The notes under the pieces were generated by a model. That model was not told where the DNA came from. It ran no database searches and saw only the letters and a program-made list of their open reading frames with translations. A stretch of 64,000 nucleotides of DNA from NCBI GenBank assembly GCA_910575005.1, contig CAJTCL010000009.1:1-64000 (forward strand), in the 5' to 3' direction. Of the stretch, positions 41,495 through 64,000 are shown one piece after another. The position numbers and the translations under genes are program-made. The stretch comes from Lachnospiraceae bacterium. Its GTDB lineage: Bacteria > Bacillota > Clostridia > Lachnospirales > Lachnospiraceae. Position 1 is the first letter of the stretch; every line of letters begins with the position of its first letter.

Positions 41495-42367
41495 TTATAA
41501 TTCATTTAGTTTAGAATAGATCCCATATATCAACATACAACTTGGCAATGCCCTGTGCATCTCGATTAGATCGAATGAAAAATGTGCTGCCACCGTCTCC
41601 AACTCATAATCTGCCAAATCATCCATTTTTCGTCGTGCAATATGCTGCACATCCTTGGTCTTTTTAATTATAATCTCTTCGCCTGTCCGCTCACCTAGCT
41701 TTTCAAGAAACTCCAAGTCAAATCGCAAATGATACCCAACAAGCAAACTACTTCCAATAAACTCCTGTATCTTTTGAACTGCAATGTCATCTTGTAATCC
41801 TTGTTCTGCAAATATTTCTTTTGCAATTCCTGTCAACTCGGTAAAACGATCTGGTGTCATTTCTTTGGATTGAATAAAACATTGGAATTGATCTTCTATC
41901 TCCTTTTCATTTATCTTTAACAAACCAATTTCCATTACTTCATCTCTATTATCATCTACTCCTAAAATTTGAACAGAGATCACAACATAACTGGTAGATC
42001 TTTTATTGTTTCTCTGACGGTTAAGTTTATCATATTTTGATGCTTTACTAAAACCTGGCGGTAAATTGTTACTTTGCTCTATCGTTTCATTTCCTATCAC
42101 TGGTTTCTGCATTAAGGTGATGCCTTCATAATCTACAGGTTTCCATGTCGTATTGTGTGTAAGAAACGAAAATCCTTGCTCATTGTTTGCAGAAAACACC
42201 ATCGTCGCCTGTCCACTTTTAATATTGTCACAAATCCTTTCCCATAATTCTTCACGCACTCTGGCACTCAATTTCCCGACATAGACACCTGTATTAACCT
42301 CACAAAGCCATTTGGATAAATCTCCCCTAAGTGCCGTCGGGCAGTTCATCACACATAAAACGATCAC
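41495..42367 (-). CDS. cas2: Cas2 fused to a degenerate DnaQ-like exonuclease domain
   Basis: 290 residues. 1-95 is the I-E (CasE-neighbour type) Cas2 ferredoxin fold (IVLCVMNCPTALRGDLSKWL), which bridges two Cas1 dimers in spacer capture. Residues 126-290 are a DEDDh exonuclease fold. The usual D-x-E of Exo I is S131-V-Q133, Exo II keeps D217 (HLRFDLEF), and Exo III keeps H271 but has S276 for the last Asp. Two-metal catalysis is thus unlikely. In I-E systems with intact fusions this domain trims prespacer ends. The start is GTG 42367, overlapping the cas1 stop by 4 bp. The array follows 44 bp downstream. Confidence 0.93.
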   Translation of the reverse strand: MIVLCVMNCPTALRGDLSKWLCEVNTGVYVGKLSARVREELWERICDNIKSGQATMVFSANNEQGFSFLTHNTTWKPVDYEGITLMQKPVIGNETIEQSNNLPPGFSKASKYDKLNRQRNNKRSTSYVVISVQILGVDDNRDEVMEIGLLKINEKEIEDQFQCFIQSKEMTPDRFTELTGIAKEIFAEQGLQDDIAVQKIQEFIGSSLLVGYHLRFDLEFLEKLGERTGEEIIIKKTKDVQHIARRKMDDLADYELETVAAHFSFDLIEMHRALPSCMLIYGIYSKLNEL

Positions 42368-43308
42368 TTGTTATCACCATCTGATGTATAGGAAACACCA
42401 TGATCCACCTCACCTTGTATGTTATCCCAAAGATAAAGTGTACTCTTATAATCCTCTTTGCACTCACCTTCTGAAAGCAAAAATTTTATATCGTGAACCA
42501 TACGTTCCAAAATATGTCCTTTCTTCAATTCATCGCGCACTCTCCGTCTTGTTGCACTTCCAATATCTTCGACATTTGCTGACGCCATTTCAAACGCAAT
42601 TGGTATCGTAATCTCTGCCTTATATAAATCAGCCACATCATATACAAAAGAAAGTTCATGGCCCACATGTACAAATCCCAATCCAGGAGAACAGCCCAAA
42701 GCACAGACCACCGCATGAGCCAGTCCATATAAACATGCATTTCCTGCTGATAACGATTGATTCACCGCATCACTGGATTCATAATCCTCTGGCCGATATT
42801 CTCTTCTTTTCCAAGCTACATTCCACTTTTTTGACTGCTCCCGATAAACTGCACGAATCCGGCTCCCTTCACGCCCTCTCAACTGCTGCATGGTAAGTTT
42901 CGATACATCTTCATCTGGAAATCGCAATTGATACATCATCCTGGCAACTTGAATATGCTTTTTCTCATTGCTGACCAACTGTGCCTGCCGAAGCAAAAGT
43001 GTAGCATGGTTTGTTAATGCTCTGCCATATGCATAATATCGAACTCCATGTTCTCCTACCCAGATCACAGTCACTCCCATATCACCAATTAATTCCATTG
43101 CTCTATGTGTAACCTCTGTCCCTGGTCCCAGTAATAAGACAGAAATTGCCGCCCCTGGAATATGTGTAACCCCATTTTGTGTTTTTACGGTAATCGCGCC
43201 ATTATCCCTGCTTATCTTACACCGCTCCAGATAGATAAATGTCATACGATCCTGTGCACGTGGCAGCGCCTGAATCCCTGGCTTCTCCACACCTGATTTG
43301 ATTTCCAT
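42364..43308 (-). CDS. cas1: CRISPR-associated integrase Cas1 (type I-E)
   Basis: 314 residues. Integrates prespacers at the leader-repeat junction in complex with Cas2. The metal ligands match E. coli Cas1 by spacing: E147 (RGREGSRIR), H214 (GFVHVG) and D227 (FVYDVADLYK). N-terminal beta domain about 20-85; helical domain after. ATG directly follows the cas6e stop (TAAATG) with GAGGAGTGAAGG in front. All catalytic residues are present, so adaptation should be possible at least at the Cas1 step. Confidence 0.96.
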   Translation of the reverse strand: MEIKSGVEKPGIQALPRAQDRMTFIYLERCKISRDNGAITVKTQNGVTHIPGAAISVLLLGPGTEVTHRAMELIGDMGVTVIWVGEHGVRYYAYGRALTNHATLLLRQAQLVSNEKKHIQVARMMYQLRFPDEDVSKLTMQQLRGREGSRIRAVYREQSKKWNVAWKRREYRPEDYESSDAVNQSLSAGNACLYGLAHAVVCALGCSPGLGFVHVGHELSFVYDVADLYKAEITIPIAFEMASANVEDIGSATRRRVRDELKKGHILERMVHDIKFLLSEGECKEDYKSTLYLWDNIQGEVDHGVSYTSDGDNK

Positions 43309-43938
43309 TTATCCTTCACTCCTCGCAATGGTAAGCATTCCCATGCCATAGGCTTTCTCACGTCCAATTCCATTAATTAACGCACTTTTGAAACTCTCTA
43401 CATTCTCAACTCTCAATTTGCCTTCAAATGCAACCTCCAAAATATGTACCTTTTGCTTGGCATTTTGTTTCTGGAATATCTTCCAATTAGAACTTCTAAC
43501 ACCCGTAGATTCCGGCAAAAGAGCAAACCCATTTTTCTGGGATTGTTTTTCTAACCATTCCAATTGATACTTCTTTGAAGTATGGGCAACCACTTTACCT
43601 CTTCCCTCAGCATTTGGAATACTATGGGTTGGATTTGCCACCAACCGAAAACGCCAGGTAGAACCTTGCTGAATCTGGTTTAACAACCCTTCATATGCTT
43701 TGGATTCCCCACTGTAATCTGGATAGCCAAATTGTTGTGCAATTTTCTCTAAATCAGGTTTGCAGGAACTGAGTATCATTAAATAGGTTTGATTTTTTAA
43801 AGTATCAATTCTCCACAAATTTCTATTCTGTTTTTCTAAAAAAGCATTTTCCACAGCGCCATGAATTTTATTTGGAGAAACCAAAGCAATCTGTGTTTTT
43901 CTTCTTTGTATATCTAATGGAATTCTTGAAAGATACAT
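43309..43938 (-). CDS. cas6e: Cas6e pre-crRNA endonuclease
   Basis: 209 residues. Cuts the repeat hairpin and stays bound to the crRNA 3' handle in Cascade. Two RRM-like halves. The His in NKIHGAVENAF near residue 24 corresponds to the general-base histidine of E. coli CasE (HGxVE). A glycine-rich loop lies near the end (INGIGREKAYGMGM). The start is ATG 43938 with GAGGTGAG upstream; the GTG three codons earlier is part of that RBS. It lies between cas5 and cas1. Confidence 0.94.
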   Translation of the reverse strand: MYLSRIPLDIQRRKTQIALVSPNKIHGAVENAFLEKQNRNLWRIDTLKNQTYLMILSSCKPDLEKIAQQFGYPDYSGESKAYEGLLNQIQQGSTWRFRLVANPTHSIPNAEGRGKVVAHTSKKYQLEWLEKQSQKNGFALLPESTGVRSSNWKIFQKQNAKQKVHILEVAFEGKLRVENVESFKSALINGIGREKAYGMGMLTIARSEG

Positions 43939-43943
43939 GTTTC

Positions 43944-44639
43944 TCACCTCAATTCCAACATAGGATCATGCTCTGTTAAAGTATCTACCTGTTCCTTATA
44001 CATCATCTTCCCTCGCATTTCCTTCACATAACGATAACCATATTCCCTCCGAAATGGAGAAAATGACAGTGGAACATCCTTTTTCACTGCCCCTTCTTGT
44101 TCATGCTCGATCACAATTCTTAAATGCAAAGTCTCAGAAAACCGAAATAATGATTTCCTTCGCCACTCTGGTACAAGCCAATCCTCATCATAGAGTGCTT
44201 GATATAAGTCATTCTCACGGATTCCCAAAATCAATGGCTGTGTCGGCGGACAGGATCTTCGACCCAAAAAAATCGAAAAACCTGGGTGTTTCAGTGCCTC
44301 GATCAGTTCTTCCAAAAAAATCTTATCTTCATCTGCCAAACCCACTAAAAACATAGCATCACTCAAATATGCCCTGTTTGATACATTTGTATTGAATTTT
44401 TCTCCCATATGGGTAATCTGATAATCATTCAATTTCGTCCCTGGCAGATCCACCCGGACGCCAAACTTCAATTTCTGCAAATCCTCTAATGATTCATCCC
44501 GTTTTCTTCCCAGCGCCGCTGCCAACATCCCCAGTACTCCGCTTTTCGTTGGCATGTAATCTGTCTCACGGCTGTCATACATAGATCCAGAACCCCATGA
44601 CTGCAATGGTGCACTTAATCTAAGTAATAAAGTATACAA
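43944..44639 (-). CDS. cas5e: Cas5e Cascade subunit
   Basis: 231 residues. Binds the 5' handle of the crRNA. Family pattern: LLLRLSAPLQSWGSGSMYDS at the start, TDYMPTKSGVLGMLAAALG, then QITHMGEKFNTNVSNRAYL and FLGRRSCPPTQPL. The best start is TTG 44639 (LYTLLLRLSAP), with AAGGGGAG in front and 4 bp after the cas7 stop; the ATG at 44684 would overlap cas7 by 41 bp and add non-family residues. Confidence 0.93.
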   Translation of the reverse strand: MYTLLLRLSAPLQSWGSGSMYDSRETDYMPTKSGVLGMLAAALGRKRDESLEDLQKLKFGVRVDLPGTKLNDYQITHMGEKFNTNVSNRAYLSDAMFLVGLADEDKIFLEELIEALKHPGFSIFLGRRSCPPTQPLILGIRENDLYQALYDEDWLVPEWRRKSLFRFSETLHLRIVIEHEQEGAVKKDVPLSFSPFRREYGYRYVKEMRGKMMYKEQVDTLTEHDPMLELR

Positions 44640-44643
44640 AGCA

Positions 44644-45744
44644 TCACTCCCCTTCTTCTGAATACTTATCAATCTCACTGGCAATATTTTGCAGAAGTTC
44701 AGTAAAATTCACTTTCTGTGCAAAATCTTCACCGTCACTTCCCACTACCCATGCCTGCTTAGGCTCTGACACATAATTTTGATACACTGTTTTTGCATGA
44801 TTCATCAATGCCTGTTTGGATTCCTTCACAAATCCATTGCTGTTGGCCACAACAGCCCGCTCAAATGCCCCTGCCAGATTGACTGGCTGATCTTTGCGAA
44901 AAGTGACATATACCATATCTGGAAGGGTTCTGTTGGCAAATGTATTCTGTTTTCCAGTTGGCATGGAACGGATAAAAGCCTCCGCAAACCCTTTGACTGC
45001 CATTTTCAATTCCTCTGGCTGCAGATTTTCTGCCAATTCTTTTACATTGACCGTCGCATAGCGATATAAGGTAGATGAATTAAACTCCACGGTGCCAAGA
45101 TGTCCTGCTCCAGCATTGTCCTCCGGCGCACAGTCATCCACGGCCGTAAAATAATCATATTCATTGCTGACTGCGTGTGTGGAAATACTGTGAGCAACTT
45201 GTGCTGCGGCATCATAATTTAAATTTGGATTACTTGCCGCCATACGGCCAAATAAGAGAAGATCAACGCTGGGCGTATCGTTCAGAGCTTTTTCCAATAA
45301 TGGCTTATACTCCTTATCTTTGTCTTTTTCTTTAGCAGAGGATTCCTTATATGCTGCCGCAAGCTTGGCCACATTTTGCACTTGTTTTGCACTGATAAAG
45401 AAAAGTGCATCTTTCTTATCAGAACCTGCCTTCACGCCTGCCAATTCCAAAACTTTTTTTGCCACCTTCTGCGCATCTGTATCTGTAATCTCAGCATTTT
45501 CCTCACAGATTTTATCAGAAACCAGCTTCAATACATCTTTGGTGCGATACCCAATATAATCCGATGTAAATAACTCCTGAAACATCAATCGCATTGCCCT
45601 CTTCCATGACTGTGATGATACCCTGGCTCTCATAGCACCGCCATACATCGCCATCTTCGGGCTTCCTGTATCATCCCTATTTACACAACTTGGTGGAACT
45701 GTCTGCAGCACGTGAAAATCAACATATAAATTCTTATTCATCAT
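44644..45744 (-). CDS. cas7e: Cas7e Cascade backbone subunit
   Basis: 366 residues. Polymerises along the crRNA spacer (six copies in known I-E complexes). It starts with the family motif YVDFHVLQTVPPSCVNRDDT, then KMAMYGGAMRARVSSQSWKR and RMAASNPNLNYDAAAQVAHS. ATG 45744 overlaps the cse2 stop; the next ATG, 3 bp on, has better spacing from AGGAGG and may be used. Confidence 0.95.
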   Translation of the reverse strand: MMNKNLYVDFHVLQTVPPSCVNRDDTGSPKMAMYGGAMRARVSSQSWKRAMRLMFQELFTSDYIGYRTKDVLKLVSDKICEENAEITDTDAQKVAKKVLELAGVKAGSDKKDALFFISAKQVQNVAKLAAAYKESSAKEKDKDKEYKPLLEKALNDTPSVDLLLFGRMAASNPNLNYDAAAQVAHSISTHAVSNEYDYFTAVDDCAPEDNAGAGHLGTVEFNSSTLYRYATVNVKELAENLQPEELKMAVKGFAEAFIRSMPTGKQNTFANRTLPDMVYVTFRKDQPVNLAGAFERAVVANSNGFVKESKQALMNHAKTVYQNYVSEPKQAWVVGSDGEDFAQKVNFTELLQNIASEIDKYSEEGE

Positions 45745-46340
45745 ACATCCTCCTCTTCCTTCTTTTTGTTTTTCTCTCTATAAAAATCTTGTCCCCATTT
45801 GAAACATATTTGTTTTTTGCCCTCTGGCATCTGAATCTCATATAAATCTCCAGCAAAATCCTGATAATTAATCGGTATGCCATTGGATTTCAGGAGCTGT
45901 ATCACTCCTCTGAGATGATAGGACAATTCTTTCATGTCAACAGCAGTAGCCAGCTTCTGTAATCTTTGCAGCATTCTCTGCTCTGCATTCGGGTCATTGA
46001 GCGCGCGAGCCAATCTTGACAGCGCTCTTCCAATGCTAATATGTTCCTCTGTGTGCATGGGCTGACTCTCAAGCGAATGCCCTTGCTGGTGCAGGGCATA
46101 CAAAGTCAGCGCAATATAACATGCCCATTCCTCCCTGGTGGCAATGCCGCTCTCGCTCATAAATTCTTCTGGCATATCAAGTAAAATAACTCCAAAAAGC
46201 TTGGGCATCTCACCTGGTTCATTTCCTACCCCACGGCGCAGATTTGCCAGCATTGCCTTGCCGTCGCCCTTACCAGCTTCCGCCTGGAACATGCTTATTT
46301 TTTTCCCAACAAAACTCTTTATGTCAGCTTTTTTGCTCAT
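45741..46340 (-). CDS. cse2: Cse2 small Cascade subunit
   Basis: 199 residues, all helical, as in the Cse2/CasB family; two copies stabilise the displaced strand in Cascade. Typical segments are RRGVGNEPGEMPKLFGVIL and an Arg-rich helix SIGRALSRLARALNDPNAEQ. The start is ATG 46340 with GGGAGGAG; the frame from 46361 overlaps cse1 and is unlikely. It lies between cse1 and cas7 in the canonical order. Confidence 0.93.
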   Translation of the reverse strand: MSKKADIKSFVGKKISMFQAEAGKGDGKAMLANLRRGVGNEPGEMPKLFGVILLDMPEEFMSESGIATREEWACYIALTLYALHQQGHSLESQPMHTEEHISIGRALSRLARALNDPNAEQRMLQRLQKLATAVDMKELSYHLRGVIQLLKSNGIPINYQDFAGDLYEIQMPEGKKQICFKWGQDFYREKNKKKEEEDV

Positions 46341-46357
46341 TCGTTCTCCTCCCTGGA

Positions 46358-47968
46358 TCATAGTTTATAGATTATGCGCAGTTCTCTTTGATAGTCATTT
46401 TGTATGCCTGGAACTGTCAACAATCCTTTATCTCCTTCCTTATAGATAAAAATATCCATGCCCAAAGTCGCAATATAATCATCTACCACTTTTCTGGCAA
46501 AATAAGAAGATTTCCGCTCCCATTCCACAAGCTTTTCCTCGGGGTTTCCCTGCGTGGGATCAATCCCAACCAGCCATTGCCGAAATGCATGGTCTATGGA
46601 AACATAATAGCGGCTGACCAGCAGATCTTTGATATTACTTTTTACAGAACCAGTTCCATAAAACAATTTGTTGAGTTTGGCAGCCAAACGATTTAACGCT
46701 TCGGCCACCGATTGACATTTCTCCACTTGCTCTGTGATCAGGTCGATCCACTTCCCACCCAATTCCTCCAATATGCCTGCTGACATCACTATATTATCAT
46801 CCACGCAATCTCCAAAGGTATAATTCTGCTTATCTCCATAGACGATTCCCACCATCCGAAAGGTAAGCAGTGTCTGTGATGCAATTATTTTTTTATTTTT
46901 AAGCATCTGCATCCATTGCACAACTCCAGGACTATGGTCTTCCTCGTCCCCCTCAAAAAGTGTGGGAAATTCTCTCCACGCATGAACTGCTGGATCGTGT
47001 AATCTGGGAACATGAATTTCTTTATCTAAATTTTTATCTTTCTTTGTGCGCCATAAGGTCATTGGCTCATTAAAATCTTCTTCCACCGGATAGAAATCTC
47101 CTCCCATAGCACGAAATCCAGTCACATAGCCGTCCTCTCTCTTTAACATAATCCGCCTGGACTGCATGGTATAGAGTTCTGGCAGATTATCTGGCGGAGC
47201 AATCTGATTACTCTGTAATACACAGACCTCTTTTTCCCAAGTTGGTTTTGGTGCGCCCCACGGTTCTTTATCCTCTCTTAACGGACATAAATTTAACATC
47301 AAAGTCTCAAACAAATGGGCTCCATTTACCATCACAACTCCAAGCTGCCCCAATCTCCCTACCTTTACAGGCAGCGTTGTCCCTGGAACACCTACTTTTT
47401 TATCTGCTTTTATATTGACTGCATAGGCATTAAGATGAATCAACCAGCGCAATGCTTCCCCATAGTGCAGCTTGGTAAGCTCCTTGCCATCCACCATACT
47501 AAAGTGATGTTTGGTCGCTTTATTGTTACTTTCCTTTATATTTCCAAACAGACAATCTAAGTTATAATCTGTTCCATACTTTAAGTTACTGACCTGCCAG
47601 AATGGTGTCTCAGGATGAAACAGCCAAAAACGCTCCTCCCATGTCTTTAAGTAATATCTCACTGCCCGCTCTGGAAACTTCCCCAGCGCCCAGTAATTTT
47701 CCCAGCGCTCTAATATATCTTCAGGATCATCATCTTTTAATAATTCATCCGTCTCCCCATTTTCGTTATACCGATAAAAAATGGTTTCCACAAGTGCCAG
47801 CAACACCCGCAGCACTGCCACATCCTGTGTCGGCGTCTCTCCCGACAAACTTGTATATTCATGCGCGTGGAGAATTACATCCAGCAGCGAAACTTCTTTC
47901 TGTTCCAATGATGGGGTAATTACTTTAATCCATGATTCCTCCAAGAGATTAAATTCCTTCTCCTGCAT
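46358..47968 (-). CDS. cse1: Cse1 (Cas8e) large Cascade subunit
   Basis: 536 residues. Reads the PAM and recruits Cas3. It begins FNLLEESWIKVI, the family start, then LSLSGETPTQDVAVLRVLLA, a zinc-less middle region and a C-terminal four-helix bundle from about 370. ATG with AGGGAGGAAG overlaps the cas3 end by 20 bp, so translation is coupled. Confidence 0.94.
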   Translation of the reverse strand: MQEKEFNLLEESWIKVITPSLEQKEVSLLDVILHAHEYTSLSGETPTQDVAVLRVLLALVETIFYRYNENGETDELLKDDDPEDILERWENYWALGKFPERAVRYYLKTWEERFWLFHPETPFWQVSNLKYGTDYNLDCLFGNIKESNNKATKHHFSMVDGKELTKLHYGEALRWLIHLNAYAVNIKADKKVGVPGTTLPVKVGRLGQLGVVMVNGAHLFETLMLNLCPLREDKEPWGAPKPTWEKEVCVLQSNQIAPPDNLPELYTMQSRRIMLKREDGYVTGFRAMGGDFYPVEEDFNEPMTLWRTKKDKNLDKEIHVPRLHDPAVHAWREFPTLFEGDEEDHSPGVVQWMQMLKNKKIIASQTLLTFRMVGIVYGDKQNYTFGDCVDDNIVMSAGILEELGGKWIDLITEQVEKCQSVAEALNRLAAKLNKLFYGTGSVKSNIKDLLVSRYYVSIDHAFRQWLVGIDPTQGNPEEKLVEWERKSSYFARKVVDDYIATLGMDIFIYKEGDKGLLTVPGIQNDYQRELRIIYKL

Positions 47969-50819
47969 CTTCTTCCTCCCTCTTTATGTACTCTAATCCT
48001 CGTTCAAAACTGTATGTCAATTCATAGCCGTTCAATTCTGTCTGATTTTCCTGATTCAACAGCAAGATCAATTCTCCATGCAGCCAGGAAGACTGCTGCC
48101 ACAGAGACAATTCCTTGCGGTTTCTGTCTTCCAGCTCCCGAATGGTATCTTCTCTGTTCCAATATGAACTGAAGATATGCGGCAGCCTTAACCGTTGTCT
48201 GGCAACCATGCAGCCCTCCTTACTGTCAGGAACCCTGATGGCAGACAATACTGGAAATTGATCTGGATTCTGTGTTACAAATAAAATATCCCCCTCTCTA
48301 TTTTTCTTCATCAATAATACTTCGATGGATGATACTCCGTCCCGTACACTGGCCTCAGCCACTTTCTCGCTGGACTGCTCTTGATTCTCAAGAATGCCGC
48401 GGAACCCTTTTTTCATGGGCTTCTGAAGTCGATAATTGCCAGCTTTTGCTTCCTTTTCCCTTAACATACGCTCATAATCTGACAAAGCCTTATCATATTC
48501 TACTCCCTTCAACCCTAAATCATCCTCTTGATTATACACTTTCTGCACTAAATTGGAAATATCTGCCGGAATATTTATTTCATTTCCTAAAACTTTTTCT
48601 GTTCTAAGCAAAAGATAATCTCCATATACCGCTCTGCTGCCCTTATCATAATTGACATGATCCTCTTGTAACTTGCTGCCCTTACCATAATTTACATGAT
48701 TCTCTTGTAACCCGTTGTCATCATCACAAATAGTATTGTCCCTTAAAATAATACATTCTGGATTTTGTAACGATTGAGGCCTGGGGGCTCTGTCTGATTT
48801 TCCATCCCGTTGATGTCTATGCAGACGCCCCACTCTCTGCAATAATAAATCAATCGGACACAGCTGTGTCACCATAATATCTGCATCATAGTCCAAAGAC
48901 TGTTCCAAAACCTGTGTGCCAATTAATATCACTCTGTTTCTATCACTGCTTGTGGAGGTTTTCCCCATTTTTTGCAGCAGCTCTTTTTCTTTTTGGGCAC
49001 GGTCTGGCATGGTAAACTGTGCATGATACAAGATTACCTTGACATTTTGCATGGAAGCACAACACTCTGCATAAATCCTTTGCGCATACTTGACGGTATT
49101 GGCAATGATACATGCACAGCCTCCCTGCTGCAAACGTTGATCGAGCACAGAAATCAGTTCTGATATCTCATTCATATAAGTGATCTTTATCTTTTTTTCT
49201 GGGAGCTGCTGCTCTATCTTTACCTGGTCAACGGTCTCCCCATCACTCCAAGTCAGAAGTGGATAGCCAGGATTATCCTTCCAATCTGGCTGCAGCGCTG
49301 TAATGTTAGGTCTCCTGTTTCCCAGACAATACTTTGCATATGCTTTCACATAACATTCCACCAAAGCGCTGCGGCGGCTGGGAGGAAGTGTTGCGGACAG
49401 TAAAATCACAGGTACGCCATATGCGGCCATCCACTCCAGAGAACGCTCCAAATACTCATTCATATAGGCATCATAGGCATGGCACTCATCAATGATCACC
49501 ACTTTCCCAGCTAGTCCCACATGTCTAAGCATAAAATGCTTGCGTTTTAAGGACGCCATTAAAAATTGGTCTACAGTCCCGATGACAAAATCGGCCAACA
49601 AAGCTCTTTTATTTCCCTGAAACCATCTATGTACCTCTATGCCATCCTGATCATACCCATCATCATCGACATACGCACTGCCATTGATCATGATTTGACG
49701 ATAAGATTCATTTAACTCTGCTGCATTATGGGCCAGACGAATTGCATTTACTGTTTCCTCTGACACCTGCTTGCTCCACTCATATAATCGCTCAAACAAT
49801 CCATTGCTGGTTGCTTGTGTCGGCAGACCAAAGAAGATTCCACCCTCGCGTTTTCGATTTGCCAAAACCTCTGCCGCCGCTAATGCCGCTTCCGTCTTTC
49901 CGACACCCATCTGCGCCTCCAACACAAAGATCCCTGGATTTTTACTATTGTTAATCACCTGCTGTATACAACTCTGCACCTCATTTGGCTCAAACCCAAA
50001 TCTCTCATAAAAAATATCTTTATCCATCCGATTCATTTCAGAACACCAGGTTTCTGGAAATGCCACGCGCTCCCACCCTTGTTTCATTCTTTGCGGGTAT
50101 AACCCTTCCTCTCCAAAATCATCCAATTCTATCAAGGGAAAATAAGTGGTATTGCTGGCAATCCAGTCGGCAATAATAAGCAGCCCTGAAAAAAGTACTT
50201 GTGCCCGCAAGGTCACACTTGGAAGTTCTTCCACCGATTTCATACCAGCCAAATCTACTGCCTGTGCTACAATATCACGCCAAGCATCCTCCCAAATTTT
50301 CCTGGACTCGCCTTCCTGCTCGACGCCAAAAAAATTGATGGGATATTTCTTGATCAAATCAGATTCGCCATTGATTGTTCCTCTATCCATTGGTTTGCCA
50401 TGATGAGCCCCCACGATCATGGCCAGGCTTTCATTGATACCAAATGTCATTGTATCACTCTGCAAGATCCACTGCCCTGCGTATGCATGAGGTGTTTTCC
50501 CTGCTGCTCGATATTCTTTATTGACTAAAAAACCACTGGCAGCAATTTCCTCATACTTTACTGGACAAGCTTTGGTAATGATACTCTGAAAGTAGGAAGT
50601 AGCTTTTCCGATATCATGGACTGCTGCCAAAAATACTGCTGTCTTCTCAAACTGTTTTGCTTCCAGACCGGACGCATCTATCACTGCCTCTGGAAGCCAT
50701 TGTTTGACCAGCTTTTTGATCACTCCAGCCGTATCCTTTAAATGCATCCATAATGGCAGCCATTCTTCCTCTGTCTCACGGCTTGTCTTAGCCATCAATA
50801 TTTGGTATTTCTTTTGCAT
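47949..50819 (-). CDS. cas3: Cas3 helicase-nuclease
   Basis: 956 residues. N-terminal HD nuclease (AAVHDIGKAT, then GAHHGKP), SF2 helicase with Walker A AQMGVGKTEAA, motif II DECH, LLSATLPPSRR, and motif VI QRVGRLHRH, then the C-terminal Cas3 domain. Recruited by Cascade, it unwinds and degrades target DNA. The start is ATG 50819 with GAGGAGGAGAAG; the ATG at 50849 overlaps the phosphatase stop. Odd: a 39-bp tandem duplication (48636-48713) encodes LQE/NHVNY-KGS twice in the helicase C-terminal part. Confidence 0.95.
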   Translation of the reverse strand: MQKKYQILMAKTSRETEEEWLPLWMHLKDTAGVIKKLVKQWLPEAVIDASGLEAKQFEKTAVFLAAVHDIGKATSYFQSIITKACPVKYEEIAASGFLVNKEYRAAGKTPHAYAGQWILQSDTMTFGINESLAMIVGAHHGKPMDRGTINGESDLIKKYPINFFGVEQEGESRKIWEDAWRDIVAQAVDLAGMKSVEELPSVTLRAQVLFSGLLIIADWIASNTTYFPLIELDDFGEEGLYPQRMKQGWERVAFPETWCSEMNRMDKDIFYERFGFEPNEVQSCIQQVINNSKNPGIFVLEAQMGVGKTEAALAAAEVLANRKREGGIFFGLPTQATSNGLFERLYEWSKQVSEETVNAIRLAHNAAELNESYRQIMINGSAYVDDDGYDQDGIEVHRWFQGNKRALLADFVIGTVDQFLMASLKRKHFMLRHVGLAGKVVIIDECHAYDAYMNEYLERSLEWMAAYGVPVILLSATLPPSRRSALVECYVKAYAKYCLGNRRPNITALQPDWKDNPGYPLLTWSDGETVDQVKIEQQLPEKKIKITYMNEISELISVLDQRLQQGGCACIIANTVKYAQRIYAECCASMQNVKVILYHAQFTMPDRAQKEKELLQKMGKTSTSSDRNRVILIGTQVLEQSLDYDADIMVTQLCPIDLLLQRVGRLHRHQRDGKSDRAPRPQSLQNPECIILRDNTICDDDNGLQENHVNYGKGSKLQEDHVNYDKGSRAVYGDYLLLRTEKVLGNEINIPADISNLVQKVYNQEDDLGLKGVEYDKALSDYERMLREKEAKAGNYRLQKPMKKGFRGILENQEQSSEKVAEASVRDGVSSIEVLLMKKNREGDILFVTQNPDQFPVLSAIRVPDSKEGCMVARQRLRLPHIFSSYWNREDTIRELEDRNRKELSLWQQSSWLHGELILLLNQENQTELNGYELTYSFERGLEYIKREEEDAGEGI

Positions 50820-50848
50820 TTTCTTCTCCTCCTCATTAGCTAATTGCA

Positions 50849-51646
50849 TTACACATAAAATACTTTTTCATCTTCCAGCCGAATACAGGCAAGACTTGCC
50901 TGAGGATTTCTGTCACGCAGCACACAACCGCAGTCTATATCATAAAAAATACAATCTTTTTCCTGATTATAATAGCGGAATACCTTTCCATGATGATAGG
51001 AAAACTCTCCCTTAATTACAGTAGGTGTATGCCCTGCAATAATCATTCCATGCGGTTTCCCGCCCATTTGACAGGATTCCTCTCTGGCATATAGGAAAAA
51101 ATCTTTTCTGCTTGAATATAATGCACTGATATCCTTTAGACTTTCTGTATATCCTGCATGAACCACAATACAAGCCCGATCGCCAACCGTCAATTCCCGA
51201 TAATAAGGCATTTGCCGAATCATCTCTGACCATCTGCACAGTTGCCCCAGGGTAACACCAGAATGATCAATCAAATTTCTTACTGTGCCATAGACATCAA
51301 AATAAGAAACAGCTATTCCACTCTGTTTCATAAAATATTGCACAGAACTATATAAGGCCGCTGTCTCACTGTTAGAATTTCGATCAGTTGCCAATTCTTC
51401 TTTCTGATCCAGTTGGAGCATCACATCAACATAAGCCAAAAATTCTTCTTCATGGTTGCCCCGAATTGGCTGGACATTTACCGGACAACCTTCCAGCCAC
51501 TCTAACATTTCCAGGCTGTGTTTCCCTCTGTCAATAAAATCTCCCGCTAAAATCAGGCTGTCCTCATAAGAAAAATTAATTTCTTCCAGCATCCTAAGAA
51601 ATTCTTCATAACAACCGTGAATATCACTGATCACATAAACAGCCAA
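50849..51646 (-). CDS. PP1/PP2A-type metallophosphatase in the cas operon
   Basis: 265 residues. Calcineurin-like motifs in order: DIHGCYEEF near 8, GDFIDRG near 36, RGNHEEEF near 65, VVHAGY near 175, and GHTPT near 218. This is the set found in bacterial Ser/Thr phosphatases and PrpE/ApaH-like Ap4A hydrolases. The start is TTG 51646 with AAAGGAGGAAAAG at good spacing; the ATG at 51670 overlaps the region just after a terminator. Its TAA is 30 bp before the cas3 start, so it is the first gene of the cas transcription unit. A role in CRISPR control or nucleotide-signal removal is inference only. Confidence 0.85.
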   Translation of the reverse strand: MAVYVISDIHGCYEEFLRMLEEINFSYEDSLILAGDFIDRGKHSLEMLEWLEGCPVNVQPIRGNHEEEFLAYVDVMLQLDQKEELATDRNSNSETAALYSSVQYFMKQSGIAVSYFDVYGTVRNLIDHSGVTLGQLCRWSEMIRQMPYYRELTVGDRACIVVHAGYTESLKDISALYSSRKDFFLYAREESCQMGGKPHGMIIAGHTPTVIKGEFSYHHGKVFRYYNQEKDCIFYDIDCGCVLRDRNPQASLACIRLEDEKVFYV

Positions 51647-52249: not shown

Positions 52250-52798
52250 TTAGTCAAAATCATAAGCTCTCTGCCATGCCGGAGCCTCAGGGCCTCTGCC
52301 TGGATAATCATAATAATATCCGCCTGGCCCAAATTCATCCTCTGACTCATAGGTAATGTAATAATCGACTTTTCGCAGCAACTCAAAATCCCGTTGACGT
52401 GTGCGGTCTGATAATCTAGGATAATTGCTGTGATACCAGGTTATAGGATCTTCTATCTCACTTCTGATCACTTGCTCCATCACATTACACAGTCGTATAA
52501 TCCTTTCCATATATCTTCTTTGATTCTGGCTCTCAGGAAATTCAGGAGGCGAAAAATCTCCTATACAGAAACCATACATAAAATCACCATCTACAGGTAT
52601 ATATGCCTTTAACTTCTGTGAATAACATACATGCAGAATACCAGCATTTTTTAACAATTGGATATCACGATAAATAGTCTTTTTACACATTTCAAATCCG
52701 TAACATTTCATATGATCATTGATATCACGAAAAGAAATTATTCTACCTGTATAAAATAGATCATACAGACATAAAATACGGCATGTTTTGTTATCCAC
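52250..52798 (-). CDS. HTH transcriptional regulator of the DeoR/WYL-linked type, WYL domain absent
   Basis: 182 residues. A winged helix lies at about 5-65 (CRILCLYDLFYTGRIISFRD; KKTIYRDIQLLKNAGI), the form that in CRISPR loci usually precedes a WYL domain. Here the remainder (about 70-182) has no WYL signature and ends in a Gly/Tyr-rich tail (GPGGYYYDYPGRG). The start is GTG 52798 with TTGGAGGAATTC in front; the ATG at 52834 lacks an RBS. Possible controller of the cas operon or its own unit. No clear operator is visible upstream. Confidence 0.6.
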   Translation of the reverse strand: MDNKTCRILCLYDLFYTGRIISFRDINDHMKCYGFEMCKKTIYRDIQLLKNAGILHVCYSQKLKAYIPVDGDFMYGFCIGDFSPPEFPESQNQRRYMERIIRLCNVMEQVIRSEIEDPITWYHSNYPRLSDRTRQRDFELLRKVDYYITYESEDEFGPGGYYYDYPGRGPEAPAWQRAYDFD

Positions 52799-52915
52799 AC
52801 GAATTCCTCCAATACCTAATGTATTTTGTGTCAATCAATGTCAATTTCACAATAAAAAATGAAATATCTGTTTATATATGGAAATTTTTGATGATGCCAG
52901 TAGTATATCACAAAT

Positions 52916-58429: not shown

Positions 58430-59896
58430 TTAAGTTAATCTTTTTAACAACTCGCTCCCCTGGTTGATTACCTTTTGGTATCTCTTGGCATTTACACTTT
58501 TCAGCCAGGCAATTTTTCCTGAAATCTCGTTTATTGTCTGAGAAGATACCGAACCACCAGACTCATGTAATTTCTGTGCATTATGTATAGAAGCTTTTAA
58601 TATCTTCACCCATTTCTTGGGAACACCAATCTCTTCATTGATTACAATACCAGTGATATACTGTCTGTTATTCTTTCTCAAGATATGTGTTTTTTCTTGT
58701 TTCATGTGAAAGCCTTCGGCTTCAATAATTTGATTGACACTGTTCAAAAAACTTCCGACTGCTAAATTCTCAGTGTCTCCACTATAGCTAAAACTCATAT
58801 CATCTGCATATCTTGTATAAGTAAGCCCCAGCTTTTGGCATAGACCATTGATGCGCTTATCCATATTTCTGCAAATAATATTTGTGATCATAGGGCTTGC
58901 CGGAGAACCTTGTGGCAGTATTCTCTCGGAAGTTTTGATATATTTTACCTCTCCTTTTACCTCAAGCGGCATCCTCTCGCAGTAAGTGCAGATCATCGCC
59001 AGCAGTGACGCGATATAACCTGAGTAGCCAAAAGACTGATATAAGCCCCTGACACGCTCAAATGTAATGGTAGGGAAAAAGTTTTCTAAATCAATATTGA
59101 TCAATAAATCAGGACTGGTATTATGTACTTTTGCACCTGTGAGGATCGATCTTGATTTCATAAATCCATGTGACAGATCCGAAACCTCTATTTTTTGCAG
59201 AATTTTTTCTAATATCTGCCTCTGTGCCGCTTTGAGCTGTGATTTGGGCGCAGCGATATGACGGGTTCCGCCGCTTTTTTTGGGAATATCAAAGCGATAA
59301 TAATTGTCAAAGGTGACAACATCCCTATGGTACACCAGATAACGCAGCGTTTTGTATTCGATTTGCAAGAATTCTGCAAGTTCTCTGTCTGTCTCTATGA
59401 CAGGCATCTGATTCTCTTTCAGTTTCTGCACATCCGTCTCTTTTTTTGCTAACAGTCCAGAATAACCTTTGCCAATAAATACAATATTTTCTGCTTTGCG
59501 CTTGTTCCAAGCCTCTGATTTTAATTGCTTTTGCCGTTCCCGCTCTGCTTTTCTCTCTGCTCGTCTGGCAATCGATTCCTTCATAATTTCCTGGGAAACA
59601 ACAGCACGAATTTTTTCATAATCCCAGGTGTCCTCGTATTGCTTTTTTAAGTGAGAAATCTTTTTCTCAATTTCCGTTTTCTCCTGATAGGCCTCGGAAA
59701 TCTGTTCGGAAAGTTTTTGCAGCTCAGCTAACAGTTTTTTCCTGTTCTCAAAGTCTTCTTCTGTTTCATTTTGCTGGCGCTCATATGGCGTTGGTAAATT
59801 GCTAGGCCAAAACCCATATTCCTGCATTTTAAGAAAGGTAAATTCTTTCTTGCCCATATTTTGTACCAGTGTTCTATATTCGGCTTTTGTATCCAT
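58430..59896 (-). CDS. Retron-family reverse transcriptase with N-terminal extension
   Basis: 488 residues. The RT core is at about 195-440: IPKKSGGTRHIAAP, motif A D269 in NIDLENFF, motif B QGSPASP 329-335, catalytic YADD 363-366. Retron-type marks are HGFMKSRSI and GAKVH 254-258 in place of NAxxH, and ITG 414-416 in place of VTG. Residues 1-190 are an unusual charged extension with coiled coil (EIEKKISHLKKQYED; ARRAERKAERERQKQ). No maturase domain is present, which argues against a group II intron. Start ATG overlaps the previous stop (TAATG). It should make msDNA from an ncRNA not yet located, as part of a three-gene defence unit. Confidence 0.88.
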   Translation of the reverse strand: MDTKAEYRTLVQNMGKKEFTFLKMQEYGFWPSNLPTPYERQQNETEEDFENRKKLLAELQKLSEQISEAYQEKTEIEKKISHLKKQYEDTWDYEKIRAVVSQEIMKESIARRAERKAERERQKQLKSEAWNKRKAENIVFIGKGYSGLLAKKETDVQKLKENQMPVIETDRELAEFLQIEYKTLRYLVYHRDVVTFDNYYRFDIPKKSGGTRHIAAPKSQLKAAQRQILEKILQKIEVSDLSHGFMKSRSILTGAKVHNTSPDLLINIDLENFFPTITFERVRGLYQSFGYSGYIASLLAMICTYCERMPLEVKGEVKYIKTSERILPQGSPASPMITNIICRNMDKRINGLCQKLGLTYTRYADDMSFSYSGDTENLAVGSFLNSVNQIIEAEGFHMKQEKTHILRKNNRQYITGIVINEEIGVPKKWVKILKASIHNAQKLHESGGSVSSQTINEISGKIAWLKSVNAKRYQKVINQGSELLKRLT

Positions 59897-61662
59897 TATA
59901 ACAACATCTCCATTATATCATTGATTTTATATTCTTTCTCGTATTCCAAATTTTTTAACTTTAACAATTTATAGGAGGCCACATAAAGGGCAAGAATATG
60001 TGCGCAAGGATCCGAAAGATTTCGCTCACCTCTTTTAAATTTTGGGCAATTACAATTGATCTTTGTAATTTGTCCATCCTGGTCAATGACCACTTCTGTT
60101 TCCGTAGCAGGCGGCCATCTGTCTTCTTGCTTGTAAGTTGTCGTAAATACAAACTCCTGCTTGTGCGTATATTTTACCTTCATATTATCAAAGACACTTT
60201 TGCTGTATCTTTTTACATCAATTTCAATGTCAGAGATCTCATAGAGTTCTTCTGGAATGGGGGTGTTACACAAATGGCGAAAACGTACTTTGTCATTGAT
60301 TGGATCAAAATAACCCTCGCCGCGCCGTAACAGCATGCCAACACCAGCTTTTATCCGATCACTTTTCTGCTTTGGAAGACTCTCCGAAATTTGCTGTATA
60401 GAGAGACAGCGTTTCTCTTTCAATAACTTATAAATATCTTTATAGCAGCCCTGACCTGTAAATCCTGCCATAATATTAAATGCAGTGCCTTTTACCCAGT
60501 CATTAGAAGACCATGAGGAGAAACCAACTGTCATCTGCATGGTACCCATATCGGCACGGATAAATTGGGGCATTCCAAATCCCAAAAGCCGCACATAAAA
60601 CGCTTTCGACAAGGGAATTAATTTTTCCACAACCAGCCAGCGTCTTCTGCCCCAGATTTTTTCCTCTCTTCTCTGCTTGCCCTCATAGACAGCATTCAGC
60701 GTGAGGACTGTCCCAAAAGGCTCAAATACAATCTGTACTCTTTGCCCTGGTTCTAAAATCCATTTCATATAACGCGGACTCTTCTTCTCTTTGTGTTTTC
60801 TCAAAAATGCACAGATATCATACATATCAGAGGGAGAGAGCTTCAGTTCCATACCAGATAAAACTGCTGCAGATGACACCTGGTTAAATCCTTTGATCCA
60901 GGTTTCAGGCAAATCAATTTTCTTCTCCACATACTCTGGCACAATATCATTGTCTATCGTAAACCCTTCTGGATTGACCGACAATGTGACATCTGTATAG
61001 CTTCTAAATCGCTGCATTTCCTGCTCTAATTTGGCGGAAAAGTCAATATTTGTGGTTCCAAGTTTAGGTGGCTGCATTAAATCAAATTCATTCATCGCTA
61101 CCGACAGACAGCCATAAACAGATTCATCAAGTGAAAATGCCTCAAACGATACCTGATCTTTATGGACCGTAATGACAGGATCTAATACAAACCATAAGCT
61201 GTAATCTCTGTCTTTGATAAACTTCCAAAAATCCCGTTCAATTTTATAATAATCCTTCCACGCATCATACTGGTCAATCTGCTTTTGTAAATTTCTTTGA
61301 ATATTCAATAACTGGTTGATAGCATATTTTTTATGTGACAGCTCAACATCGCAAGCGTCCATCTCTTTCTTTAAAGACTCTCTTACATTTGGCATGTACT
61401 GCTCATGCACCTTTATGCGGCGTTCAATTTCTTCATCCAGCCATGCAAAATAATCGGTTCTCTCTTTTGTCTTTTTTCTCGTATCAGAAACAACAATTTC
61501 TCTTAACATCAGCATGGCATCACGAAACAATAACGGATGCTTTAATTTCCCGCAGAAGGAAACTTTTTCATCGCGGGATAAATCAGGACTTAAGCCCAAA
61601 GTTGTTTGATTGTCAACCTGCGTACAACGAGAAGGGCTTGCGTATTTGTAACCTACTTTCAT
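59896..61662 (-). CDS. SWIM zinc-finger protein of the retron operon (WH-SWIM type)
   Basis: 588 residues. N-terminal helical region with coiled coil (about 80-135), a beta-rich middle, a winged-helix-like segment near 420-480 (CLSIQQISESLPKQKSDRIK), and a C-terminal SWIM motif: C537-x-C539 ... C553-x-H555. SWIM domains bind DNA or protein. RBS AAGGAGGTAGG lies before ATG; 4-bp overlap (ATGA) with the helical-repeat gene and TAATG with the reverse transcriptase. I recall WH-SWIM plus ARM-repeat proteins as the accessory pair of type XIII retrons; its role there (effector or inhibitor) is not known to me. Confidence 0.82.
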   Translation of the reverse strand: MKVGYKYASPSRCTQVDNQTTLGLSPDLSRDEKVSFCGKLKHPLLFRDAMLMLREIVVSDTRKKTKERTDYFAWLDEEIERRIKVHEQYMPNVRESLKKEMDACDVELSHKKYAINQLLNIQRNLQKQIDQYDAWKDYYKIERDFWKFIKDRDYSLWFVLDPVITVHKDQVSFEAFSLDESVYGCLSVAMNEFDLMQPPKLGTTNIDFSAKLEQEMQRFRSYTDVTLSVNPEGFTIDNDIVPEYVEKKIDLPETWIKGFNQVSSAAVLSGMELKLSPSDMYDICAFLRKHKEKKSPRYMKWILEPGQRVQIVFEPFGTVLTLNAVYEGKQRREEKIWGRRRWLVVEKLIPLSKAFYVRLLGFGMPQFIRADMGTMQMTVGFSSWSSNDWVKGTAFNIMAGFTGQGCYKDIYKLLKEKRCLSIQQISESLPKQKSDRIKAGVGMLLRRGEGYFDPINDKVRFRHLCNTPIPEELYEISDIEIDVKRYSKSVFDNMKVKYTHKQEFVFTTTYKQEDRWPPATETEVVIDQDGQITKINCNCPKFKRGERNLSDPCAHILALYVASYKLLKLKNLEYEKEYKINDIMEMLL

Positions 61663-64000
61663 AACGTGCCTACCTCCTTCTGAACCCGAGCAAATGCCAC
61701 AAGCGCTCTCTCAGAATCTATTTTGCTGTTTGTGCTTCCAATATCAAGAAGTATATGCTCTATTTCCTGCTGCTTTTCTGGATAATATTTCAAAAACAGC
61801 GGCAGAGAATGATAAATCTGTTCCTTGCTTTTTGAAACTTTATTGGGCAGATAAAGCAGGGTTTTGACATAATAAATATATAAATCTGGGTTCGCCTCTT
61901 TTATGTCAGAAAAGGCCTGTTCCATTTTATGGGAGAGATAAGCCTTCACCGCAACACAGGGATGCTCCATCATCCGTGGAATAAATTGTGTTGGAATCTT
62001 ATTTCCATACCAGTCATCGAGTTTTTGCAAACCATACTGATAAGTTCTTTCAATTGGAGAATCCAGTAAAATAAGATGCAATTTTTCTCTTTCAGTAACT
62101 TCCATTCCATCAAATACAGACTGCGCAATTTTATTTAGATGATATACGTTGCATTCAAATAACAGCAACATCGTCGTGGTTCTCTTAGAAAGCTTCTCCT
62201 GTTGTCGTTCCACAACCTCAGTAAGTGTTTTTACAAGTCTTTTAGAACCTGTCTCCAAAATTGAAAGAATCAAACTATCTTTTGGCAGACTCTCCTCTTT
62301 GCAGGCCTTCAGTAAAGATACTGTGTTGTATTCCCGTTCTGTCATACCACCATGTTGTGAAATAACGACTAACGTATCTTTTAAGACATCATATGGCACA
62401 GAGAATATAATATTTTCTGTGATATCATAAAGGAAATCCGGCATCTTGGTAAAGCTTAACAACAGAGAGGTAAAATAGCGCAGCAACTCTTGCTGTCCCT
62501 CTTTGGATGCAGTCTCCATTTTACCGACAGATTTAATCAGTAAATCTATAATCTGTTCGGAAAGTTCTATCTGCTGTTCCAAAAATTCTTCCTTCTTCTC
62601 AGCGATAGATTTTAAAAAGGCAGTATACTCGGCGATCGTAAAATGATTGATGTTATCCTCTAAGATACTGTACCATGTTTCTATGGTATCTAAAAAGAGG
62701 AACTCAGCAATATGTTCCGGCTGGAATTTTCCGTTTGTCTGTTTAAAATATTTCTTTGCAGCCTCCCACATATCCTCTGAGGATGCATCCATCAAAGAGA
62801 TCATAATCTCTGCATCAAACTCTTGCATAGCCTCCAATTGGGGCAGCAATATTTCCTTAAATAATTCTGCTGTTTTTTCATAAGGTATTTTTACAAGTGC
62901 AATCAGCTCTTTGATCTCATAAGAGTCAAACTTATGCTGCTCTTTTGCCTTTTTTAATATGGCATAACAGAACTCATGTACCCGTAAAGCCTTTGCGTTC
63001 TTGGCTACAAAAATAATGTCCTCCAGATATCTGTTCCAGATGGAATGCTCTGCCGCCTCATCATTTACAATTACATTGCCGAAATACCTGTCAAAAAAGA
63101 AATTATAACAAATATCCGCATAATACAGATCCATATAATCGTTGTTTTTATAGCTGATCAGCATTTCACGGGCAGCTGTTACAAATTTGACTTCATCCGT
63201 TGCCTTGTATTCGTCAAGTATTCTTCTTAAATAACGTAAATAATAATTGTATGCGCCTGACCTGCCGCTTCCTCTAAAATAATTGGCGGTCCTTGGAATG
63301 TCTAAATAGTATGCTATTTTCCCTAGAGCATCAGCCATCTCATATGCCTTTGCTGTCTGTATAGTATTTTTATAGGCAATATTTTTTACATTTGTGCCGT
63401 CTATGTAAGTATTTTTTTCATAGAGTTCCTGATTGCCAAAACAATAATAAATGTTGTCATAAGCCTTGGGTTTCTCTAAATACTCCTCCAACTCACTACC
63501 TTTTAATTTTACGCCATTCAATGTTAATTTCTTAATCTGAAAATCCATTTCCGGAAGTGTTTTGTAGATAAATTCTTTTTGCTCATTCAGCAGCTTCTCA
63601 TCAAATACGCTTATATATTGCTGAATACAACGATTTAATCCACTGTGATATTCTTTCTTTGCCCACAATACATCGCTTGTATCAATCTGTTTGGCAGTAT
63701 TAAGTAAAATCGGATTCTTCTCGATCGTCAGCTCCTGGAAGATACCACATGCCAATTCTACACTTGCAACTTTTAAGATACGTTCATATTCTTCTACCGA
63801 AGGCTGCATCTTTATAAACTGACTGAGATATTTTCTTCTTGAATATAACCGTTCCTTGGAAAACATATTCACAATGGTCTCCATATATGGGCTGTCAGCC
63901 TCAAAATCAAACAAATCACTGGGGTCCTCAATCAATTCAATATCCTTAAATTCAATTTGGTTTTCCTTTAAATAAGCAATATAATCTGTGTAATTCTTAT
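61659..64000 (-). CDS. ARM/HEAT-like helical-repeat protein of the retron operon (N-terminus beyond window)
   Basis: The frame is open to the right edge: in-frame sequence (AYLKENQIEFKDIE) precedes the first in-window start (TTG 63935), so the true start lies outside. At least 780 residues, nearly all amphipathic helices in pairs (IPYEKTAELFKEILLPQLEA; TLTEVVERQQEKLSKRTTTM; HPCVAVKAYLSHKMEQAFSD), which suggests ARM/HEAT-type repeats. A scaffold or sensor role is expected from the fold. It is the first of three coupled genes (helical-repeat, SWIM, RT). Confidence 0.75.
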   Translation of the reverse strand, partial: KNYTDYIAYLKENQIEFKDIELIEDPSDLFDFEADSPYMETIVNMFSKERLYSRRKYLSQFIKMQPSVEEYERILKVASVELACGIFQELTIEKNPILLNTAKQIDTSDVLWAKKEYHSGLNRCIQQYISVFDEKLLNEQKEFIYKTLPEMDFQIKKLTLNGVKLKGSELEEYLEKPKAYDNIYYCFGNQELYEKNTYIDGTNVKNIAYKNTIQTAKAYEMADALGKIAYYLDIPRTANYFRGSGRSGAYNYYLRYLRRILDEYKATDEVKFVTAAREMLISYKNNDYMDLYYADICYNFFFDRYFGNVIVNDEAAEHSIWNRYLEDIIFVAKNAKALRVHEFCYAILKKAKEQHKFDSYEIKELIALVKIPYEKTAELFKEILLPQLEAMQEFDAEIMISLMDASSEDMWEAAKKYFKQTNGKFQPEHIAEFLFLDTIETWYSILEDNINHFTIAEYTAFLKSIAEKKEEFLEQQIELSEQIIDLLIKSVGKMETASKEGQQELLRYFTSLLLSFTKMPDFLYDITENIIFSVPYDVLKDTLVVISQHGGMTEREYNTVSLLKACKEESLPKDSLILSILETGSKRLVKTLTEVVERQQEKLSKRTTTMLLLFECNVYHLNKIAQSVFDGMEVTEREKLHLILLDSPIERTYQYGLQKLDDWYGNKIPTQFIPRMMEHPCVAVKAYLSHKMEQAFSDIKEANPDLYIYYVKTLLYLPNKVSKSKEQIYHSLPLFLKYYPEKQQEIEHILLDIGSTNSKIDSERALVAFARVQKEVGTL

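Follow-up and report, generated by a model that had tools for sequence, protein, structure and literature searches.

A clostridial type XIII retron with a predicted clamp-like partner protein and, in its relatives, RNA arrays with differing stems

What might an operon do that combines a reverse transcriptase (RT) with a SWIM zinc-finger protein and, as third protein, a long helical-repeat protein? The question is raised by the end of a 64,000-nucleotide stretch of DNA (the window) from a Lachnospiraceae bacterium, positions 1 to 64,000 of contig CAJTCL010000009.1 in assembly GCA_910575005.1. The window is part of a 169-kb contig in a 4.3-Mb genome. We propose that this genome carries a complete chromosomal type XIII retron directed against phages, in which stems of the multicopy single-stranded DNA (msDNA) would serve as baits for phage proteins acting on DNA and a clamp/HEAT module would act as the effector; we give this an even chance of being right.

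The operon and its class

According to the list of open reading frames, all three genes are on the minus strand, the helical-repeat gene first, then the SWIM gene and last the RT gene:

58430..59896, minus strand: RT, 488 aa; RVT_1 (Pfam) and RT_XIII (PADLOC)
59896..61662, minus strand: SWIM protein, 588 aa
61659..64000, continuing to about contig position 64442, minus strand: HEAT/ARM-repeat protein, ~927 aa, truncated by the window edge

The helical-repeat and SWIM genes overlap by 4 nt and the SWIM and RT genes by 1 nt, so an earlier note on this DNA described the three-gene operon with its overlapping stops and starts correctly. It also derived a fixed stoichiometry and a multi-protein complex from this coupling, neither of which gene overlap establishes. 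Both the RNA gene and the 5′ end of the operon fall outside the window. The earlier note thus had no view of that gene, and it did not notice the clamp fold described below. The longest ATG frame of the HEAT/ARM gene starts at contig position 64577, and the first residues of its relatives place the start near 64439-64442.

A scan of named genomes yielded 53 related loci, the closest being that of a Lachnospiraceae isolate (L033), whose SWIM protein is 98% identical. Behind the SWIM gene, 50 of the 53 have an intact RT frame that includes Y.DD; in L082 and L083 the SWIM frame is broken, with RT similarity behind it, and L043 is cut by a contig edge. A homologous helical-repeat frame stands immediately ahead of the SWIM gene in 50/53 loci. 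Here the exceptions are L055 and L085, which begin at a contig edge, and L064, where the frame is about 2.4 kb off (gap at L064 5594-8001). Since the three-gene layout is kept across these related loci, it is not due to chance.

Retron RTs carry the motifs VTG and NA..H. The earlier note had claimed retron-like motifs together with YADD in the RT: YADD stands at residue 363, and an exact-pattern scan for VTG and NA..H gave no match, although ITG can be seen by eye at the position expected for VTG. The RT matches Pfam RVT_1 (E 1.8e-26) and has an N-terminal extension of about 160 aa ahead of its core. With PADLOC it reaches 528.5 bits against RT_XIII and 276.6 bits against the next model. Grouping with group II introns or with defence-associated RTs, which would have spoken against a retron, finds no support in its scores of 70.4 bits against the group II intron maturase model (cut-off 300) and 41.8 bits against the Drt2 model (cut-off 390). 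The SWIM protein scores 592 bits against SWIM_XIII and lies above the cut-off for Pfam SWIM. PADLOC defines the type XIII set as RT_XIII and SWIM_XIII plus WGR_XIII or HEAT-ARM_XIII. Judged by these sequence models, the type XIII assignment is confirmed, and the operon is a clostridial branch of the same class.

Of the two partners named beforehand, WH-SWIM and ARM, the first is borne out by the SWIM_XIII match. The second has a homologue whose predicted fold is a HEAT/ARM solenoid, and it drew no PADLOC hit. The class is said to originate with Mestre and colleagues in 2020, and we know of no mechanism for type XIII retrons. Our literature search, with most subscription papers outside its reach, returned no type XIII mechanism and found the class named only in PMC11953036, in the accessible part of which PADLOC annotates a type XIII retron in Variovorax. 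Earlier accounts of the features described below, whether RNA, arrays or clamp fold, may exist elsewhere.

The msr-msd RNA and its copies

The RNA gene and the flanking promoter-like sites lie just past the window edge:

contig 64644-64672, minus strand: promoter-like site of the operon, in 26/28 loci of the lineage
contig 64703-64730, plus strand: promoter-like site of the RNA, in 21/21 testable loci of the lineage
contig 64740-64941, plus strand: msr-msd RNA, outside the window and divergent from the operon

We call a site promoter-like if it scores at least 10 of 12.5 for TTGACA/TTGACT, a distance of 16-18 nt, TG and a −10 hexamer. In the window's lineage, the −35 box of the RNA lies about 30 bp from that of the operon. 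The RNA ends pair, a1 (GGTTAGATTTTCTG..) with a2 (CAGAAAATCTAGCC), and the inner msd stem has 17 bp. Our RNA model R1 scores this RNA at 187.5 bits, but the RNA is part of the R1 training set. Rfam 15 gave no match at gathering score for RNAs from six sources; the sub-threshold hits, led by a microRNA family at E 0.0095, belong to eukaryotes and were taken as chance.

Among the 53 loci, the RNA element lies upstream of the operon in 22 (32 copies) and downstream of the RT in 21 (23 copies); it is not in the covered stretch of the remaining 10. On the RT tree, a single change of RNA place suffices (22 upstream and 20 downstream rows, support 99); L083 is excluded from it, since the frame there is the second part of a broken SWIM gene. 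Compensatory changes support the RNA structure. In the downstream lineage (22 aligned copies, the third L068 copy excluded), 97.6% of cells are paired and both partners have changed in 26 of 29 pairs, a level reached by 0 of 500 shuffles; shifting the partner by one column reduces pairing to 21-30%. For the window's lineage, in which the variable stem is misaligned by the automatic procedure, both sides have changed in 13 of 24 predicted pairs, and the arms of the copies inspected, each folded singly, form long stems.

Watson-Crick changes are valid for either strand, and G-U cells turn into A-C on the complement. The RNA was first modelled on the operon strand, which promoter-like sites and the msr hairpin led us to reject. 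All 21 testable loci of the window's lineage (2 of 23 are without the flank) have a promoter-like site on the operon side of the element and directed into it. The other strand has one at that place in 2/21, the far end of the element is preceded by one in 0/21, and shuffled flanks yield one in 6%; the signal is weaker in the downstream lineage (12/21 versus 5% of shuffles). The msr hairpin is stabler on the divergent strand in 32/33 and 21/22 copies, and the RNA has a fold z of −8.99 there versus −5.63 on the other strand, for stretches that differ in length. A point against is the folding of the whole a1-a2 unit, which favours the chosen strand in just 19/31 and 18/23 copies. The true RNA is most likely the complement of the strand modelled first. 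From the promoter-like sites and the msr hairpin it follows that the RNA of the window's lineage would be divergent, and that of the other lineage would lie downstream of the RT on the operon strand. The resulting order is a1, a short msr hairpin, a long msd hairpin and a2. This is the canonical order of retron RNAs.

Five of the 43 loci with the RNA have more than one copy: L049 (2), L051 (6), L052 (4, in a Clostridium sp. MD294 record titled complete genome), L056 (2) and L068 (3, the third scoring 26.8 bits with R1 and 83.5 with R2). In the genome of L055, a contig bears two further RNA copies ahead of the third gene. Within the four arrays of the window's lineage, the copy on the operon side has a promoter-like site (11-12 of 12). 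The spacers of 21-43 nt are mostly too short for a full promoter and score at best 7 of 12. Because the site precedes the operon-side copy and is missing from the spacers, which were scored, each array is probably read as one precursor.

Do the copies of an array merely repeat one another? Over 23 within-array pairs, mean identity is 0.88 in the flanks and 0.55 in the stem arms, where random arms give 0.43. We set these pairs beside pairs from different genomes at similar flank identity. For flanks of 0.80-0.85, arm identity is 0.47 within arrays (n=7) versus 0.65 between genomes (n=56); for 0.85-0.90, it is 0.52 (n=9) versus 0.74 (n=48) for single copies in different genomes; for 0.90-0.95, 0.62 (n=6) versus 0.90 (n=17); and above 0.95, 0.89 (n=1) versus 0.94 (n=2). 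L051 and L052 have four stems in common, position by position, with arms 73-100% alike, and some adjacent copies in one genome have flanks 92-97% identical. Because these two loci share stems though the flanks of neighbouring copies are nearly identical, some stems seem to be older than the flanks around them. The first two L068 copies, with flanks of 0.70 and 0.92 and arms of 0.59 and 0.72, make a weaker case.

In other retrons the msDNA acts as a sensor, which makes a set of different stems plausible as a set of baits. As far as the accessible parts of the sources go, a phage adenine methyltransferase triggers Retron-Asa1 and Squ1 (PMC12548924), a phage single-stranded-DNA-binding protein triggers Eco8 (PMC12887533), and in Retron-Kva2 the msDNA is the binding target of a helix-turn-helix protein (PMC13405049). 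Arrays with common flanks and differing stems would then offer several baits to one protein set.

The alternative that survives best is that the stems differ through neutral drift after duplication, the copies merely raising the RNA dose. Compensatory change is widespread and orthologous stems drift too, as this explanation would have it, and the arms of L056_1/2, L051_1/2 and L051_5/6 are still 80-93% alike. Drift alone sits poorly with arms that, at equal flank identity, differ more within arrays than between genomes, and with the four stems common to L051 and L052 while the flanks of some neighbours are more alike; we regard it as a possible but doubtful account. Besides those three similar pairs, two facts count against stems diversified as baits: two related genomes supply 21 of the 23 within-array pairs, and the window's own genome holds the RNA in one copy (the sole other match has E 0.47), so no array is present here.

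One idea about stem content was rejected. Six-bp palindromes number 19 in 31 distinct arms against 7.9 expected before clustering; after clustering, an excess of palindromic sites is no longer supported (6 versus 3.6, P 0.16, 13 arms; second lineage 3 versus 2.2, P 0.39, 8 arms). A phage origin of the stems is unsupported as well, with 10 exact hits for one 17-mer stem arm against 5 for its reversed control, and 0 for one 20-mer arm.

RNA genes can also stand apart from the operon. Four loci have the full upstream flank without the RNA (L036, L046, L048 and L053), and in three of the four genomes the RNA was found on another contig, in one, two and one copies. By tblastn, the stretches around these detached RNAs, two of them whole contigs, contain none of the three retron proteins. 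In these draft or metagenome-assembled genomes (MAGs), the detached copies therefore lie at least some kilobases from the operon, though they need not be distant. At L124 6170-6670, two RNA genes, each preceded by a promoter-like site, are found close to a tRNA gene, in a stretch with 6 such sites versus 3.9 expected. Separately, about 2.6 kb lie between the RNA and the operon at L047 2490-5119. Separate promoters and RNA genes off the operon suggest that the RNA can be supplied freely, which would be useful for DNA-making tools.

The clamp-like partner and what the system may do

The structure model of the SWIM protein predicts a PCNA-like two-domain clamp fold at residues 35-385, broken by a helical insertion at about 61-157. 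The SWIM zinc finger follows at residues 524-560, and the region after the clamp may be a winged helix, as read from the class name and the predicted helices. The best single structure chain for the model is a 9-1-1 checkpoint clamp entry, level with PCNA. When the clamp part alone was aligned with PCNA by hhalign, it scored 30.5 (P 0.0019), against at most 29.2 in 200 block shuffles; the alignment keeps the register of the fold match, and 0/200 shuffles did as well. Lysine or arginine is conserved in the four helices that, by analogy with PCNA, would line the ring. The SWIM protein is 56-86% identical to the window copy across 32 relatives. Taken together, it is predicted to be a PCNA/9-1-1-like clamp subunit with a zinc finger, whose function would follow from the fold.

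Several results weigh against this prediction. The model is of medium quality (pLDDT, a per-residue confidence score, 75; 33 sequences), and the best hhalign probability to PCNA is only 14.5%. In the first hhalign run, with the whole SWIM profile, that probability was 0.2. When the 33 members were searched with Pfam, PCNA was absent from the families listed (25 of 60), and an hmmsearch of the profile against Protein Data Bank (PDB) chains found just 8 matches, all weak, mostly to coiled coils and none to PCNA. Plain sequence comparison thus gave no support for PCNA in the PDB-chain search or with the whole profile.

The HEAT/ARM protein has no Pfam or PADLOC hit in its window part, where an NCBIfam match was found only below the cut-off, and its L033 homologue has no Pfam or PADLOC hit either. 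That homologue is predicted to be a HEAT/ARM solenoid (pLDDT 86.5). The third proteins of the distant relatives L060, L066, L074 and L080, all four that were scanned, match PADLOC WGR_XIII at 62-75 bits. Extra domains occur in some relatives. In Pseudobacteroides the HEAT/ARM protein carries TerD at its N-terminus (L074 4646-8008, 137 bits); in a Clostridia MAG it is the RT that has TerD, at its C-terminus (L059 9788-11893, 103 bits). L068 and L077 have leucine-rich repeats ahead of the third protein. DUF6493 was considered as a homologue of the ARM protein and found no support (hhalign probability 0.1).

How might these parts work together? After the ends a1 and a2 of the divergent RNA have paired, the RT would copy the long hairpin into msDNA, a short hairpin of duplex DNA attached to RNA, as in other retrons. 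RT and msDNA might hold the SWIM and HEAT/ARM proteins in an inactive complex, with the HEAT/ARM protein as a scaffold or gate and the clamp-like protein able, if its predicted fold is right, to bind or encircle DNA. If a phage protein bound, cut or modified the msDNA stem, the complex would be disturbed and the clamp-like module freed; this module could then block DNA replication or access to the replication clamp, so that the infected cell stops. The type I-E CRISPR-Cas system about 8 kb away gives an anti-phage role a defence context. A point against this effector is that Pfam, PADLOC and NCBIfam recognised no toxic enzyme domain in the three proteins.

The roles of the two partners may be reversed, the SWIM clamp-like protein being the sensor, a decoy for a phage clamp, loader or polymerase, and the HEAT/ARM protein the lethal component. 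A clamp fold would mimic a phage replication target, and it is the ARM partner that gains extra domains in three relatives (TerD once, leucine-rich repeats twice) while the SWIM protein stays 56-86% identical. We think this arrangement unlikely, as the ARM protein is predicted to be a plain solenoid without a recognised catalytic domain, and the diversification of stems would need some other reason.

Less probable still, the system may not be chiefly anti-phage, its msDNA being a damage mimic in a DNA-damage or stress checkpoint with a 9-1-1-like clamp and a scaffold. The tie between the 9-1-1 checkpoint entry and PCNA, the existence of RT-less SWIM pairs and the TerD fusions in two relatives, which we take to point to Ter-type stress systems, are in keeping with it; a sparse and patchy distribution (5/391 genomes of the class, 6/397 of the family) and the CRISPR-Cas neighbour fit defence better. 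There is a small chance that structure prediction has produced a spurious PCNA match, or that the match reflects no more than a general alpha/beta similarity, as a pLDDT of 75 from few sequences and marginal sequence support for PCNA would allow.

We return to the anti-phage retron with a clamp/HEAT effector. In its boldest form, which we put forward tentatively and at well under an even chance, type XIII retrons would be multi-bait sensors in which several RNA genes, lying in tandem arrays read as one precursor or scattered singly, serve one RT/clamp/HEAT complex. Each RNA would give an msDNA whose own double-stranded stem traps a different phage protein acting on DNA, and the clamp effector, once released, would attack or jam replication. 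If true, a sliding clamp would serve as an immune effector, and the arrays would be a reverse-transcribed counterpart of a spacer repertoire. The clamp-like partner leads to a concrete hypothesis, namely that the system acts on the clamp or at replication forks. Natural arrays differing mainly in the stem allow msDNA-stem sensing to be addressed inside one system.

Neighbourhood, distribution and known systems

At lower window coordinates lies the CRISPR-Cas locus, whose Cas2 has a DEDDh exonuclease domain fused at its C-terminus:

38365..≥41022, no strand assigned: CRISPR array, 61-bp period, 48 repeat-family members, at least 30 among the matches listed (TRF)
41495..50849, minus strand: type I-E cas genes; Cas2, Cas1, Cas7, Cas8e and Cas3 scanned, three between them by eye

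The window also encodes a large bacterial signal recognition particle RNA (32822-33083, 187 bits) and a protein of 194 aa (52253-52834) that the NDT_II-A retron effector model matches only weakly, at 18.7 bits.

SWIM_XIII matches occur in 40 of 391 genomes of the class. Just 5 span the full profile, with E below 1e-177; 35 cover part of it, and 30 of these 35 lie in frames longer than 1,000 aa. Within the family, 6 of 397 genomes contain the RNA. Viral contigs gave 99 pattern matches, none with a SWIM relative, phages gave no tblastn match, and 5 of 72,556 plasmid records matched. Two pairs on plasmids resemble the system:

L160 5782-10070: RT-less pair, Asticcacaulis plasmid
L163 5770-10009: RT-less pair, Streptomyces plasmid

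In each, a shorter SWIM_XIII-like protein (165-169 bits) adjoins a protein named DUF6493, which Pfam places above the cut-off in the first pair and below it in the second; tblastn detected no RT in the 12-13 kb stretches.

Type XIII retrons with leucine-rich repeats are also present in two MAGs labelled Lokiarchaeota (L068, L077, L126, L127). In the L077 bin, the contig bearing a shortened RNA copy (R2 85 bits) also encodes a Roadblock protein and two GTPases of the Ras family, in keeping with a genuine Asgard host. Directly behind the L077 RT, on the opposite strand, a frame with a SIR2-like domain and tetratricopeptide repeats (L077 11340-13676) is a possible second defence gene.

How does the system compare with known ones? 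Like CRISPR arrays, the RNA arrays consist of repeated similar units with differing inserts and one promoter-like site; unlike them, they vary in a self-complementary stem, which drifts through compensatory changes and bears no sign of acquisition. With Retron-Asa1/Squ1 and Retron-Kva2 it has in common a hairpin msDNA, for which a bait role is expected here; the effectors differ, and the accessible passages on those retrons mention no natural RNA array. The SWIM protein shares the predicted two-domain clamp fold with the PCNA and 9-1-1 sliding clamps and differs in its long helical insertion, its C-terminal zinc finger and an identity of about 10%, with a ring suggested only by analogy. The pairs of SWIM and DUF6493 proteins likewise set a SWIM_XIII-like protein beside a large protein; they differ in having no RT by tblastn, no helical insertion and no detectable profile link between DUF6493 and the ARM protein.

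The closest comparison is with other type XIII retrons, such as the Methylobacterium bullatum replicon L159, which matches all three type XIII models (584, 706 and 836 bits) and whose SWIM protein and RT are about 31-33% identical to those of the window's clostridial branch. Both unite an RT, a SWIM partner and a helical-repeat partner within a single operon. Here the third protein is unmatched by PADLOC, and the RNA gene is divergent or downstream, sometimes arrayed or on a separate contig. The class itself is known; what sets this branch apart is the clamp-like partner, as predicted, the arrays with differing stems and the RNA genes that stand apart.

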